Source: Candidatus Methanoperedens sp.
GTDB taxonomy: Archaea > Halobacteriota > Methanosarcinia > Methanosarcinales > Methanoperedenaceae
NCBI GenBank assembly: GCA_026552955.1
Contig: JAPMTS010000003.1
Coordinates: 231,763-271,946, forward strand
Reading direction: 5' to 3'
DNA length: 40,184 nt
A program made the translations under genes and the position numbers. Positions 2,607-23,633 of the stretch are shown in pieces; the first letter of the stretch is position 1, and each line of letters opens with the position of its first letter. The notes beneath the pieces are model-generated. The model was not told where the DNA came from. It did not search any database and saw only the letters and a program-made list of their open reading frames with translations.

Positions 2607-4637
2607 GTGAAGGATATGTATTCAAAATTAAATTCCAATTTAAAGAAACTGAATTCAACCATCACAAGGCGCCTTATGTATAAGGTGCTTTTGTGCAGTA
2701 TATTTGTTTCGATCAGTGCTATGCCAATTATTCTCAACGCTTCAGCACTCGGTCCTGAGACATGGACTAACCTGGCGGGCTACACTTTGACCGCAAAGAA
2801 AATGGCCATATCGATCATATCACCGACAGAGGGACAGGAATTCACGACTTCATCCATTACAGTGGATGGAATAGTTTCGAATTATGCAGGAGATATAAAT
2901 GTAACTGTGAAAGTTGGGGGAGTTACACATGGATATACAATAATAAGCGGCGGTCAAACATGGACATATTCTTCATTAGAACTCACAGAAGGATCGAATA
3001 ACATAACGGCAATAGCTATAGATGCTTCCAGCAATTACGACCAGGCCACGGTTAATGTGATTTATACTCCACTGGATACTGAAAAGCCGATAATCTCGAT
3101 CATATCACCGACAGAAGGACAGGAATTCACGACATCACCCATTCCAGTGAATGGAAGTGCATCGGACAATAAAGGTCTCAGTAAGGTGGAAGTGAAAGTT
3201 GGGACAGGTTCATGGATTACAGTCACGGGAAGTAGTTCGTGGACATATTCTTCAATGCCACTTGCACAAGGATGGAACATCATAACAGCAAGAGCTACTG
3301 ATACTTCCGATAATATCAACGAAACATCGGTTAATGTGACATATACTCCCCCAGACACTGAAAAGCCGTCAATATCGATCGTATCACCGACAGAGGGGCA
3401 TGTATTCACGACTTCATCCATAACAGTGAATGGAACTGCTTCGGATAATGCAGCGCTGAGCAAGGTGGAAGTGAAAGTTGGGACAGGTTCGTGGGTGACA
3501 GTCACTGGCACCTCTTCATGGAACATATCATCAATAACACTGATAGAAGGAACAAATAATATAACAGCAAGAGCTACTGATACTTCCGATAATACAAACG
3601 AAACATCGGTTAATGTGATATATGCACCACAGGGTATTACAAACCTGGTTATTTCGATCGCATCACCGACAGATGGGGATGAATTCAATAGTTCATCCAT
3701 AGAAGTTAGCGGAACTGCATTGAACAATTCCACTTTTAGAATGGTAGAAGTAAAAGTAAACAACGGATCCTGGGAAAATGCATCTGGAGCAGACCCATGG
3801 AACATCACGGTACTGTTGTCTGTAGGTTCAAATACGATATATGCAAGAGCAAATTATACGAATTCAAATTCCAATAATGCATCAATAACGGTAACCTACA
3901 CTCCACTTCCTGATACAAACCCTCCTCCAAGGAATAGTGGTGGCGGCGGCGGTGGAGGAGGAGGAGGAGGCGGTGGAGGATCCGGTGAACAATATTCAAA
4001 CATTGATGTGAATGAGAAATATGATTGGCCGATCTACAAAGATAGAATGACCACCTATAGTTTCAAAAGCGTAAAAAATCCCATTATTTATGTGAACATC
4101 ACAGGAAATACTAATAATGATGTTATTACTGCGATGGTCGAAGCCCTGAAGGGTACTTCTTCCCTTGTGACATCCGCTGCACCGGGCAATGTATACAAGA
4201 ATGTAAATATCTGGATAGGAACATCGGGTTTTGCAACACCAAGGAACATAAAGGATGCAATTATAAGGTTCAGGGTTGACAACTCATGGATCAGCTCAAA
4301 TGGTGATATAAAATTGGTGAGATGGGATGGAAGCAATTGGATAACTCTTAAGACTTCAGAAATTACGAAAGATGATTTATTCACTTATTTTGAAGCGAAT
4401 ACCGATAGCTTTTCACCTTTCGCGATTACCTCTTTGAAAGAAACGCTAACAATGGAAAGCATATTTTCATCAGAAAAAACTCCTGCTGAGAAAGGAGCAA
4501 AAACTGGTGAAAATAAGACCAAAGGAAATAAACCCGAAAGCGATACATCAAATCTTCTTGTGAACTGGTTTATTATCGGCGGGATTTTCGTATTAGTTGG
4601 TTTGATCATTGAGGTTCTCAAGATGAAAAAGAAGTGA
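2607..4637 (+). CDS. Secreted/anchored surface protein with Ig-like repeats and PGF-pre-PGF domain
   Basis: A 676-residue extracellular protein. Residues 24-47 form a signal peptide after an unusually long, lysine-rich n-region. Four homologous repeats of about 94 residues follow, beginning near residues 67, 161, 254 and 348. Each opens with a variant of SIISPTEGQEFTTSSITVNG and contains KVEVKVGTGSW and an NETSVNVTYTP-like closing strand; this is the bacterial Ig / glucodextranase-B type of fold. Next come a run of 14 glycines (near residues 447-460) and a PGF-pre-PGF-like domain (about 470-610, with GDIKLVRWDGSNW and TDSFSPFAIT). A charged linker and one C-terminal membrane helix (about 650-671) ending KMKKK finish the protein. 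Many N-x-S/T sequons suggest N-glycosylation. The start may be the GTG at 2607 or the ATG at 2616; neither has a good ribosome site. It is probably an S-layer-associated or adhesive protein. Confidence 0.88.
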   Translation: MKDMYSKLNSNLKKLNSTITRRLMYKVLLCSIFVSISAMPIILNASALGPETWTNLAGYTLTAKKMAISIISPTEGQEFTTSSITVDGIVSNYAGDINVTVKVGGVTHGYTIISGGQTWTYSSLELTEGSNNITAIAIDASSNYDQATVNVIYTPLDTEKPIISIISPTEGQEFTTSPIPVNGSASDNKGLSKVEVKVGTGSWITVTGSSSWTYSSMPLAQGWNIITARATDTSDNINETSVNVTYTPPDTEKPSISIVSPTEGHVFTTSSITVNGTASDNAALSKVEVKVGTGSWVTVTGTSSWNISSITLIEGTNNITARATDTSDNTNETSVNVIYAPQGITNLVISIASPTDGDEFNSSSIEVSGTALNNSTFRMVEVKVNNGSWENASGADPWNITVLLSVGSNTIYARANYTNSNSNNASITVTYTPLPDTNPPPRNSGGGGGGGGGGGGGGSGEQYSNIDVNEKYDWPIYKDRMTTYSFKSVKNPIIYVNITGNTNNDVITAMVEALKGTSSLVTSAAPGNVYKNVNIWIGTSGFATPRNIKDAIIRFRVDNSWISSNGDIKLVRWDGSNWITLKTSEITKDDLFTYFEANTDSFSPFAITSLKETLTMESIFSSEKTPAEKGAKTGENKTKGNKPESDTSNLLVNWFIIGGIFVLVGLIIEVLKMKKK

Positions 4638-20215: not shown

Positions 20216-20300
20216 TGAAATCCTCCGAAAATGATGCTCTTACATTAGGCTCTTGGTATTTAATGGCTTTTACATATCCTGATGTCTTTTTTATATCTTA

Positions 20301-20387
20301 TATTTTTATTTAATTTCCAACTGAGTAGTTTCCCATTCTCAAAGTTTTAGCGGTTGCCGCTCAGCTTTTAGAAAAAATAAAAAAGGG
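20301..20387 (-). repeat. Hairpin/TATA repeat element, copy 1 (upstream of aIF2-gamma)
   Basis: Read on the minus strand it begins with a T-rich run and TTTCTAAAAGCTGAG, has a small stem AGCGG-CAA-CCGCT, then TTTGAGAATGGGAAACTACTCAGTTGG, and ends in the TATA-like AATTAAATAAAAATATAAG. It resembles copy 2 at 21810-21870 closely but has an insertion of about 20 nt carrying the extra stem. It spans the 3' end region of the cytochrome and the aIF2-gamma promoter. Confidence 0.6.
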
Positions 20388-20420
20388 ATTTCAACATCTT
20401 TACTTATCCATTGTTACTCA

Positions 20421-21164
20421 TCATTTCATTTTGCTTTTCATATTTTGAGCAGGCCAATGTAAGACATGACATCTGTAGCATTGGATACCCAGTTCCTGCT
20501 GGATCGCCATGACATTTTTCATATTGTTCTCTGTTATATTTGTTCCCATTTGATCTATTTTTGCAAATACATCGTCGCTAACATAATACGTTCTCGGGGA
20601 ATCGTGGCAATTGTAACATGCGACTTTCACATTCGCATATAGAACTTTGAACTGATTGAAACTATTATTTGTCGAAGTCTGATTTCCTTCTGCAGCATTT
20701 GCTCCAATTCCAACAAAGTTCACTGCCAACATTTTCATGGCATCCGGCCACGGTATCTCACCACTTATGTTTACAGTATCAAAATCCCTCCAATGATATT
20801 TCGCCCACACCTGGGCTGTTCGTTCTCCCATACATTTTTCACATGTTGCTGCGATTTTTGCTATATCTTTAGATATTACGGATTCATTGGCATTCAAATT
20901 CATATCTTTTCCAAGTTTTTTCACCGCAGCAACGTCGAAATATCCTTTCCATGGTTTTACCATCTTTGAGACTTTCGTATATTCTTTTGCAAATACATTA
21001 TACGATACGTTAGCATTGGCCATGTCACCTTCCTGCATGTTAGCTATCATTCCGTCAAATGCCCCCGCCATTATGAACATTTCTCTAACGTATTCACTTG
21101 AAGGAGTTCCTGGCTTCGAGTCTTGATAGAAATTATCCAAAGACTTGGGAAGAGACAGTTTCAT
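20421..21164 (-). CDS. Secreted c-type cytochrome, 3' part of frameshifted gene
   Basis: A 247-residue reading frame that is the downstream part of the gene starting at 21763. The frame is open upstream of its first ATG (21164) through a TATPDVTATP-type linker back to the 18-bp repeat tract, where a missing base breaks continuity with the 5' part. It holds two complete heme-c sites, CYNCH and CYRCH, and a degenerate CEKCM that could be a third site with a methionine in place of histidine. The first 90 residues look helical, as in cytochrome c'-like bundles. It would lack an export signal on its own, which supports its being the rest of the upstream signal-peptide protein. The likely role is extracellular electron transfer, typical of ANME-2d. 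Confidence 0.85.
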   Translation of the reverse strand: MKLSLPKSLDNFYQDSKPGTPSSEYVREMFIMAGAFDGMIANMQEGDMANANVSYNVFAKEYTKVSKMVKPWKGYFDVAAVKKLGKDMNLNANESVISKDIAKIAATCEKCMGERTAQVWAKYHWRDFDTVNISGEIPWPDAMKMLAVNFVGIGANAAEGNQTSTNNSFNQFKVLYANVKVACYNCHDSPRTYYVSDDVFAKIDQMGTNITENNMKNVMAIQQELGIQCYRCHVLHWPAQNMKSKMK

Positions 21165-21208
21165 AAAGTAGCTATAAACATCCTCGAATATTTGAATAAT
21201 CTGGTCAT

Positions 21209-21763
21209 TTACTGATATATCTTTGATTTTTTTAGCAGCAGGTGTTGTTGTAACTGTTGGTGTTGCTGTAACATCTGGTGTTGCTGTAACATCTGGTGTT
21301 GCTGTAACATCTGGTGTTGCTGTAACATCTGGTGTTGCTGTAACATTGGTGTTGCCGTAACTGTTGGTGTAGTTGCCGGATGGTCTGATTCGTTGCCAGG
21401 GAAAAACCTTGATTCGATTTCATCAATATTGCTAAAGCCATCTCCATCGGAATCGTCTTGTTCTATATCTGTCAAACCCTGTATTACTTCAGTTTCGCTA
21501 GAATCTTTTTTAATCCCTGCTTCATCCAGAGCTTTTCCATAATCATTCAAATTAGATCCAGATGAATGGCACAATGTACATGAATCAATTCTCGTCCCTG
21601 TTGTATCATAATTTTGGTTAAAATTCGCTTTGAAATCACCTATTGCTAAGGCTGTGTGCACTATTAGAAGAGCCGCTAACGTTATTAGCAGTAACCCCAA
21701 CTTTGTATATTTCCTAAAGCATGCGTGATTATCCACCATACCTCGTCTATATTTTTGTTTCAT
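21209..21763 (-). CDS. Secreted c-type cytochrome, 5' part of frameshifted gene
   Basis: The upstream part of the same cytochrome gene. The start is the ATG at 21763 (MKQKYRRGMVDN), preceded by GAGGTAAATAT; the frame opens at 21790 but that Met lacks a site. Residues about 19-40 form a signal peptide (KLGLLLITLAALLIVHTALA). One heme site, CTLCH, follows (about residue 62), then a Ca2+-binding dockerin/thrombospondin-3-like loop (DDSDGDGFSNIDEIE) and a TATPTVTATP linker. Beyond the deletion the frame decodes the repeats as MLQQHQ units and stops at 21209, an artificial C-terminus. Restoring one base at about 21346 would join it to the 3' part, giving a protein of about 447 residues with three CxxCH sites. 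Confidence 0.85.
   Translation of the reverse strand: MKQKYRRGMVDNHACFRKYTKLGLLLITLAALLIVHTALAIGDFKANFNQNYDTTGTRIDSCTLCHSSGSNLNDYGKALDEAGIKKDSSETEVIQGLTDIEQDDSDGDGFSNIDEIESRFFPGNESDHPATTPTVTATPMLQQHQMLQQHQMLQQHQMLQQHQMLQQHQQLQQHLLLKKSKIYQ
21265..21353 (-). repeat. 18-bp tandem repeat tract with 1-nt deletion
   Basis: Four perfect plus-strand copies of GCTGTAACATCTGGTGTT (21265-21336) and a fifth copy of only 17 nt (21337-21353) lacking one C. Degenerate copies flank both sides. In the intact frame each unit encodes T-P-D-V-T-A, a flexible linker between the heme/Ca2+ domain and the di-heme domain. The missing base is the cause of the frameshift. Confidence 0.9.
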
Positions 21764-21809
21764 ATATTTACCTCGGTTTATTTTATTCACTCCACATATT
21801 TTATGTGCT

Positions 21810-21870
21810 TATTTTTATTTAAATTCCGGTTGAGTTATCTCCCACTCAACCTTTAGAAAAAATAAAAATT
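21810..21870 (-). repeat. Hairpin/TATA repeat element, copy 2 (upstream of cytochrome)
   Basis: On the minus strand: TTTTTATTTTTTCTAAAGG, a perfect 8-bp hairpin GGTTGAGT-N8-ACTCAACC, then CGGAATTTAAATAAAAATAAG. The last part is a good BRE/TATA for the cytochrome start at 21763 (transcription start near 21790). Copy 1 lies at the opposite end of the cytochrome gene. Confidence 0.6.
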
Positions 21871-22092
21871 CCCCAATTCATCCTTTTTATTTTACCTCCT
21901 TTTTTTTTGCCCCTCACATAATTCCCTGGCAATTTATTTTTCGTGGATATCGGCTAGTATTAAAATCACTCTATCTCCCAAAGTTTCTAAGAATGATCAA
22001 AACCCTTTTTCCATAATGTAATATCAACAAAAAATATATATAACTATTCATGCTCATATATAATTGTTCAGACAGTTTTCTGGAAAATATGC
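21871..22092. other. Intergenic between GNAT and cytochrome genes
   Basis: No gene of size. On the minus strand a strong AAGGAGGT (about 21895-21902) is followed by a 10-codon frame (MNWGIFIFSKG, ending within the copy 2 hairpin), which could be a leader peptide or coincidence. T-rich runs that could terminate the GNAT transcript occur here. Confidence 0.3.
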
Positions 22093-22532
22093 TTACATCA
22101 AGGTTATTTTCATCATTGTTTGCCTGCAAATATCATATTTATCGCATTGCATGCAATCTTTCCATATACCTTTTTTCTCGCTATTCTGAAGCTTTTTAAA
22201 TCCTTTCTTTTCAAAAAAAATAGGTGAGGTCGTGCGAAGATAAACAATATCTGTCAAATCCAGCGCACGTTTTAGAATAGCACCCACCAGTTTTGAGCCC
22301 ACGCCTTTGTTACGATAGGATGGAAGCACTGCTATTGAACGCAATTCCACCACATCCCCCAGATCAAGACAGGCGCATCCAACGATCTTATTATTTATTT
22401 GCGCAATTATGAATTCAGGCACATTCTTCTCTACATTTTCCGTATCGAGAAAAAAAAAGAGAGAATCGTTTTTATATCTTTCAAATCTGCCTGTGTTGCC
22501 TTCCTGATGTTGATATCCATTCCGTTTTGCAT
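22093..22532 (-). pseudogene. GNAT acetyltransferase, frameshifted in a 9-T run
   Basis: The gene starts at the ATG at 22532, directly after the slipin stop (TAG-ATG) with GAGG in the slipin tail. It encodes MQNGMDINIRKATQADLKDI and then hits a run of nine Ts (As at 22450-22458 on the plus strand). After it the frame ends at a TAG. One T more, or two fewer, restores the frame into LDTENVEKNVPEFIIAQ and the acetyl-CoA-binding core RSIAVLPSYRNKGVGSKLV, ending with a cysteine cluster (CMQCDKYDIC) typical of a Methanosarcinales GNAT subgroup. As given, only a 109-residue fragment from a GTG at 22422 is open. The substrate is unknown. It could be a true pseudogene, a slippage-regulated gene or a homopolymer sequencing error. 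Confidence 0.85.
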
Positions 22533-23633
22533 CTATTTCCTCTTCTTTGGAGGCTCAGGCAAATCCGAGCTTTTAATTTTCTCGGCCTGTTTCAGGCTTT
22601 CTTCGGTCTCCCGGGCCATTTCCTTCTCAATAGATTCAAGCTCCTGTCTTAGCTCCTCCGGCCTTGGAATTCTTCCAAGCACTTCATCTGCTGTACCAAC
22701 GATCTTTTCGGTGTCCATGGGGGAGCCAATTTCCTGTATCTTCTCAGAAGCTCCGAGATATTTGGCAGCCTGTTCGATCATCTTTGAGATCTCCATCGGG
22801 AAGATTATCTTGGTTGCCTGGCCGTTTGCCACACTTTTCATCATATCCATAGTAAGAACGGTCAGCGCTTTTTTATCAAGAGGTACTGCTCCGACTGAAA
22901 GGATCCTGAGTCCCTGGGCTTCACCCTGCGACCTTAATATCTGGGAGACCCTGTCGCCTTCTGCCTCCAGGATCTTTGACTGCCTTGCACCTTCTGCATT
23001 CAATATCTTTGACTGCTTGGAGCCTTCTGCCTCAAGGATGGCGGCTTTCTTCTGGCCGTCCGCGATCAGTATTGCAGCTCTTCGCTTCCTTTCCGCTGAT
23101 GTCTGTTCTTCCATTGCACCTTTCACTGTACCGACAGGGTCAACTTCCCGTATCTCAACAGCTTCAACTTTTACACCCCAGGCGTCAGTGGAATGGTCAA
23201 GAATATCGCGCAGTTTTGTATTTATGAAATCACGATTATAAAGAATTTCATCAAGTTCCATGTCCCCGACCACGCTTCGAAGTGTGGTCTGCGCAAGTGA
23301 TAATACTGCGACATGATAATTAACCACTTCAAAATACGCTTTTCCCGGATCGATGACCCTGATATAAACAATAGCATCAACGTTTGTCGGAGAGTTATCC
23401 TTGGTGATCACTTCCTGGCGCGGGACATCAAGGACCTGTGTCCTGAGGTCAAGCCTTATGACATCGCTTATAAGTGGATATACCCAGTTAAAACCAGGAT
23501 TCAATCGTTTCTTGTACTGTCCCAGAACTATCCATAAAGCCTGTTCATAAGGCTGGATGATCGCTACTCCTGAAATAAACAGGATCAGTATTGCTACTGC
23601 GATAAATATCGCTATAAACATTTCAATTGCCAT
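22533..23633 (-). CDS. Slipin/stomatin-like SPFH membrane protein
   Basis: A 366-residue SPFH protein. One N-terminal membrane helix (residues 5-26) precedes the band-7 domain (IIQPYEQALWIVLGQYKKRL through EVREVDP-like EIREVDPVG, about 27-190). A coiled, alanine/glutamate-rich region with repeats of ILxAEGxxQSK (about 195-240) drives oligomerisation. The C-terminal tail is charged (PPKKRK). Slipins scaffold membrane microdomains and partner with NfeD, whose gene ends one base upstream. The operon order NfeD-slipin-GNAT is plain. Confidence 0.93.
   Translation of the reverse strand: MAIEMFIAIFIAVAILILFISGVAIIQPYEQALWIVLGQYKKRLNPGFNWVYPLISDVIRLDLRTQVLDVPRQEVITKDNSPTNVDAIVYIRVIDPGKAYFEVVNYHVAVLSLAQTTLRSVVGDMELDEILYNRDFINTKLRDILDHSTDAWGVKVEAVEIREVDPVGTVKGAMEEQTSAERKRRAAILIADGQKKAAILEAEGSKQSKILNAEGARQSKILEAEGDRVSQILRSQGEAQGLRILSVGAVPLDKKALTVLTMDMMKSVANGQATKIIFPMEISKMIEQAAKYLGASEKIQEIGSPMDTEKIVGTADEVLGRIPRPEELRQELESIEKEMARETEESLKQAEKIKSSDLPEPPKKRK

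Follow-up and report, generated by a model that had tools for sequence, protein, structure and literature searches.

A cytochrome gene of Candidatus Methanoperedens interrupted within an 18-bp tandem repeat: a probable recent one-base frameshift or consensus error

Two minus-strand reading frames in a genome of Candidatus Methanoperedens sp. encode what look like the halves of one c-type cytochrome, and they meet, out of register, in a short tandem repeat. The locus raises the question whether the halves belong to one gene or to two and, if to one, whether the frame is broken by an error of the assembly, by a mutation that has killed the gene, or by repeat slippage that switches the cytochrome off and on. 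The genome (GenBank assembly GCA_026552955.1; 2.48 Mb in 54 contigs, 95% complete) contains an mcrA gene. The window, i.e. the whole stretch of 40,184 bp analysed here, is a part of a 272-kb contig (JAPMTS010000003.1). Coordinates without a contig name are positions in the window.

Translation of the minus strand from 21763 to 20421 confirmed the two frames, the haem motifs, the signal peptide and the Ca2+-type loop described earlier by a model that had seen only the DNA and its open reading frames (further referred to as the sequence-only reading). The N-terminal half (21364–21763) comprises a signal peptide, a mono-haem CTLCH motif and a DSDGDG Ca2+-type loop, which reads DSDGDGFSN. The C-terminal half (20421–21233) is a cytochrome c'-like domain, predicted to be all-helical, with the motifs CEKCM, CYNCH and CYRCH. 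The halves lie in two different frames with one missing G between them. The truncated ORF (184 codons, 21209–21763) starts with the ATG at 21763, reads the array in a shifted, Q-rich frame and ends with the stop codon at 21211–21209. The downstream frame opens at 21419 and closes with the stop at 20421; the C-terminal half has neither a signal peptide of its own nor a plausible start, and its first ATG (21164) falls inside the domain.

The array occupies positions 21234–21370 of the minus strand. TRF assigned to it a period of 18, 6.8 copies and a score of 200; given the score and the copy number, it is not a chance repeat. In gene order, the array consists of an 18-nt variant unit (21370–21353), a 17-nt unit (21352–21336), four perfect 18-mers (21335–21264), another 18-nt variant (21263–21246) and a final 12 nt (21245–21234). 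The unit table bears out the earlier statement that the repeats encode a T-P-D-V-T-A linker, and the 17-nt unit is the one previously placed at 21337–21353, phased one base differently. It differs from the four perfect units by one absent G. According to the comparison of units and the frame analysis, the missing base belongs between positions 21346 and 21347, being the G of CCAGATG (CCAATG in the window). This site is outside any homopolymer or slippery run, the defective unit is located at the array boundary, and the break throws the C-terminal haem sites out of frame.

In a congener (G019), the syntenic orthologue (G019:C50:143406-144665) is a single intact ORF of 429 aa covering both domains, which is independent support for a single original frame. 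The C-terminal half of the G019 orthologue is 79% identical to that of the window gene, with the same CEKCM, CYNCH and CYRCH motifs; the 18-bp array is absent, and the domains are joined by a short T/P linker, TAPPTTTPTATPP. The orthologue has the same neighbours, SPFH/acetyltransferase genes on one side and aIF2-gamma on the other, the order in G019 (SPFH protein, acetyltransferase, cytochrome, aIF2-gamma) matching that in the window, and the two contigs are syntenic, aIF2-gamma included. As the orthologue is intact in the congener, we infer that the window frames were one gene originally and that the break is specific to the genome of the window. This supports the claim that a 1-nt deletion has split a single cytochrome gene.

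Could two separate genes merely resemble one? C-domains do stand alone in G004, G023, G012, G028 and other genomes. However, each of these has an N-terminal hydrophobic signal or anchor of its own, whereas the downstream frame of the window has none and its first ATG is inside the domain. The sequence-only reading had named homologues naturally encoded as two separate genes as evidence against itself; the G019 orthologue is no such case, being fused, and the lone C-domains carry their own signal. We give the two-gene explanation next to no chance. Of 31 congeneric genomes, 18 have homologues of the N-terminal module, several of which precede varied extracellular domains, and in one case (L079) the module is followed by a T/P-repeat linker that is in frame. 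The match of the N-terminal half to NCBIfam NF041762 was far under the cut-off. A scan of genome contigs matched one congener, LFW-280_3_1, which is classed under Methanoperedenaceae (PMC8561730). Scans of viral contigs (IMG/VR) with the C-terminal protein and with the repeat DNA yielded no related locus or repeat match.

The region upstream of the gene (21764–21872, minus strand), a probable promoter, is identical to G019 in 100 of 107 aligned bases (93% vs 77% for the gene). An 81-bp element at 21800–21880 (minus strand) has a 90% copy before a paralogous N-domain gene (G000:C14:11692-11772), so that one duplication probably took in both the promoter and the N-domain; a looser copy lies at about 20300–20398, upstream of the aIF2-gamma gene. 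In the alignment with G019, nothing corresponds to the segment at about 21882–21950 (minus strand), in which there is an A9-GGAGG run. Other repeats in the window are a 33-bp tandem repeat (2.3 copies, 22956–23030) in the SPFH-type gene (22533–23633) and 279-bp repeats (about 3 copies, 2959–3805) in the ORF at 2607–4637, the latter probably encoding repeated extracellular domains.

All ten members of the C-domain family matched cytochrome c' (PF01322) at E ≤ 0.1, with the best value of 3.5e-8; the match of the window domain is weak and falls under the curated Pfam cut-off. The fold model of the domain, built with a two-row alignment as input, was of low confidence (pLDDT of 54). Foldseek found no match for it at E ≤ 0.001; cytochrome c' and b562 bundles are among its matches, all of which have E > 0.2, and we give these no weight. 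All matches of a profile search against solved structures had E > 0.08. The window domain tentatively resembles the PF01322 family and its multihaem relatives in its predicted helices, and differs from the family in scoring below the cut-off, in belonging to a group with two or three haem motifs per domain, and in the change of the first CXXCH to CXXCM.

The haem motifs of the window gene are CTLCH, CYNCH and CYRCH, together with CEKCM, which has no His. The latter (20829–20843, minus strand) is the first haem motif of the C-domain. The sequence-only reading was right that this motif is present, but it is not a normal haem site, as its His is replaced by Met. Among 16 homologues, CXXCM is shared only with G019 and G021. 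The three CEKCM sequences form one clade on the tree (97/93 support), and their nearest relatives carry CSKCH; most simply, the His-to-Met change would have arisen once and then been inherited. The site is apparently a lost or altered haem site. HCCS, a mitochondrial enzyme, attaches no haem when that His is missing (PMC4158909). With His changed to Met, three haems rather than four would be expected in the full-length protein.

We consider it very probable that the locus is one ancestral cytochrome gene with a recent, unprogrammed loss of one base, either real or in the consensus. In an anaerobic methanotroph, the ancestral gene would have encoded a secreted c-type cytochrome with two domains, the N-terminal mono-haem, Ca2+-loop module being joined via a T/P-rich linker to the cytochrome c'-like domain. 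After the split from the nearest sampled relative, the linker would have expanded into the 18-bp array, recently, since four units are identical, and one base would then have been lost from the boundary unit. Translation would end about 45 codons past the break, so that the C-terminal domain would not be exported and could not receive haem; at face value, the outcome would be a loss-of-function allele. The direction and order of these changes, the loss of function and the role in electron transfer are our reading of the sequences compared. The comparison has one outgroup, and loss of the array in G019 instead of its gain in the genome of the window is conceivable. It is also possible that the downstream half is used via an unseen start, as the C-domain without the N-domain occurs in relatives.

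The ratio dN/dS against G019 (YN00) was 0.23 for the N-terminal half and 0.18 for the C-terminal half, compared to about 0.04 to 0.22 for twenty neighbouring genes. These values average the whole divergence between the genome of the window and G019 and cannot date the break; they suggest that both halves were under purifying selection across most of this divergence. Given dN/dS of about 0.2 in both halves and the 93% conservation upstream, the break is either recent or a consensus error. The contig was further surveyed for frame breaks (160 kb against about 200 kb of one relative, G019; 76 ORFs or 62 kb compared). Two mid-gene breaks were recognised in the genome of the window, one in the cytochrome gene and one in the adjacent acetyltransferase gene, and no other among about 76 ORFs and 62 kb compared with G019. 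Most flagged rows were judged, by inspection, to be single stops in stop-to-stop frames or reverse-strand shadow ORFs, and N-terminal frame changes in a few other ORFs were set aside, by judgement, as upstream non-coding extension. Compared with the orthologue, the acetyltransferase gene (GNAT-like, 22093–22522) lacks one base in a T9 run (22450–22458, minus strand), so that about the first 24 codons of the gene are out of frame with the rest. The two breaks are 1.1 kb apart, which could point to decay of this region or to a fault of the consensus there.

We put the chance that the sampled population really carries a recent null allele at about even. In the other branch of the same explanation, a consensus or assembly error, all units in the population would be full 18-nt ones and the gene would be whole; this is a tentative but serious possibility. 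It is favoured by the assembly being in 54 contigs, by the position of the faulty unit at the array boundary, and by documented misassembly at tandem repeats in metagenomes of this group (PMC9879509). However, the misassembly described is a collapse of repeat regions, not loss of single bases (PMC9879509), and the array, being about 137 bp long, could be spanned by ordinary reads or read pairs. The apparent constraint on both halves and the second one-base loss nearby, the only other one recognised in the compared 62 kb, agree with an error; the loss in the cytochrome gene is outside a homopolymer, in contrast to that in T9, and the survey against G019 showed no general abundance of frame breaks in the assembly.

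The sequence-only reading had also proposed a phase-variable cytochrome, with slippage of the array turning the gene off and on. The units are indeed near-identical, the array is inside an exported protein, the frame would be restored by loss of the 17-nt unit or by two additional copies of this unit, and in Borg repeat arrays the unit number varies within populations (PMC9879509). However, gain or loss of any number of 18-nt units leaves the frame unchanged, so that only the single 17-nt unit matters. For a return from ON to OFF there is no path except a new point deletion, and none of the homologues seen has an array that shifts the frame, the T/P-repeat linker of L079 being in frame. Searches of the literature brought up no report of phase-variable cytochromes for this group. 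Given that the 18-nt units are frame-neutral and that the base was lost outside a homopolymer, slippage of the repeat as a phase-variation mechanism is unsupported and has very little chance of being correct. Contraction could possibly reactivate the gene one way, but a reversible toggle is not evident.

The truncated ORF contains, shortly before its stop, an A7 run (21227–21233, minus strand) that is an A_AAA_AAA heptamer in the frame of this ORF. A −1 slip there would enter the C-terminal frame, which is open at this point, and either −1 ribosomal frameshifting or one-base transcriptional slippage would yield some full-length protein with a Q-rich linker. For the Mg-chelatase genes of Methanocaldococcus and Methanococcus, A_AAA_AAR sequences have been proposed as sites of a shift (PMC5009743), and in insect endosymbionts frameshifted genes are reportedly rescued by slippage at homopolymers (PMC3017870). 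On the other hand, a comparable A/T heptamer occurs in about 8% of 46-codon coding stretches here, the run is absent from the G019 orthologue, the RNA downstream of it folds less well than shuffles (z = 1.37), and in E. coli A_AAA_AAA is much less shift-prone than A_AAA_AAG (PMC5009743). Thus the conserved slippery site and stimulatory element that define programmed −1 frameshifting are not seen here, and recoding as the explanation of the locus is decidedly improbable; a trickle of recoded product from the A7 slip is possible. In a combined form, the 17-nt unit would make a standing OFF allele that is reactivated when the array contracts by this unit, 18-nt changes would tune only the length of the linker, and a weak −1 slip at A7 would give a trickle of protein with the Q-linker. 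This is very unlikely; if true, an extracellular cytochrome of a methane-oxidising archaeon would be switched at the level of the population.

Under the preferred explanation, a recent one-base loss in a single ancestral gene, the consequences depend on its branch. If the loss is real, an in-frame repeat newly formed in a host cytochrome gene and the gene was then lost in one lineage, which makes the locus a useful case for the question of how frequently surface cytochromes are discarded or remodelled in Methanoperedens. If it is an artefact, it warns that metagenome assemblies can give wrong counts of repeat-bearing cytochromes in this group. Phase-variable electron transfer is not established by a split gene alone.

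Among known systems, the array is closest in form to the aaTRs of Borgs, for which at least 50 nt, 3 perfect units and a unit length divisible by three are required (PMC9879509); the four identical 18-mers make up 72 nt. As in Borgs, a perfect in-ORF repeat of a length divisible by three, recently formed in an extracellular cytochrome, provides a presumably disordered linker (PMC9879509). In contrast to Borg aaTRs, the window array is on a host-type contig, syntenic with that of a congener and without an IMG/VR match, and such repeats are reported to be rare there (PMC9879509). Moreover, Borg in-ORF arrays leave their ORFs undisrupted (PMC9879509), whereas the 17-nt unit breaks the frame. The locus also resembles contingency loci with simple sequence repeats in that a repeat lies in a surface-protein gene and the frame is broken there. 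However, in such loci gain or loss of units changes the frame, whereas the 18-nt unit is frame-neutral and forms no reversible slippage tract. With an intact orthologue and a break that removes functional parts, the locus would, if the break is real, be a pseudogene or null allele. Most probably it is a commonplace frameshift of recent date, or an error in the consensus, that affects a single lineage-specific cytochrome gene.
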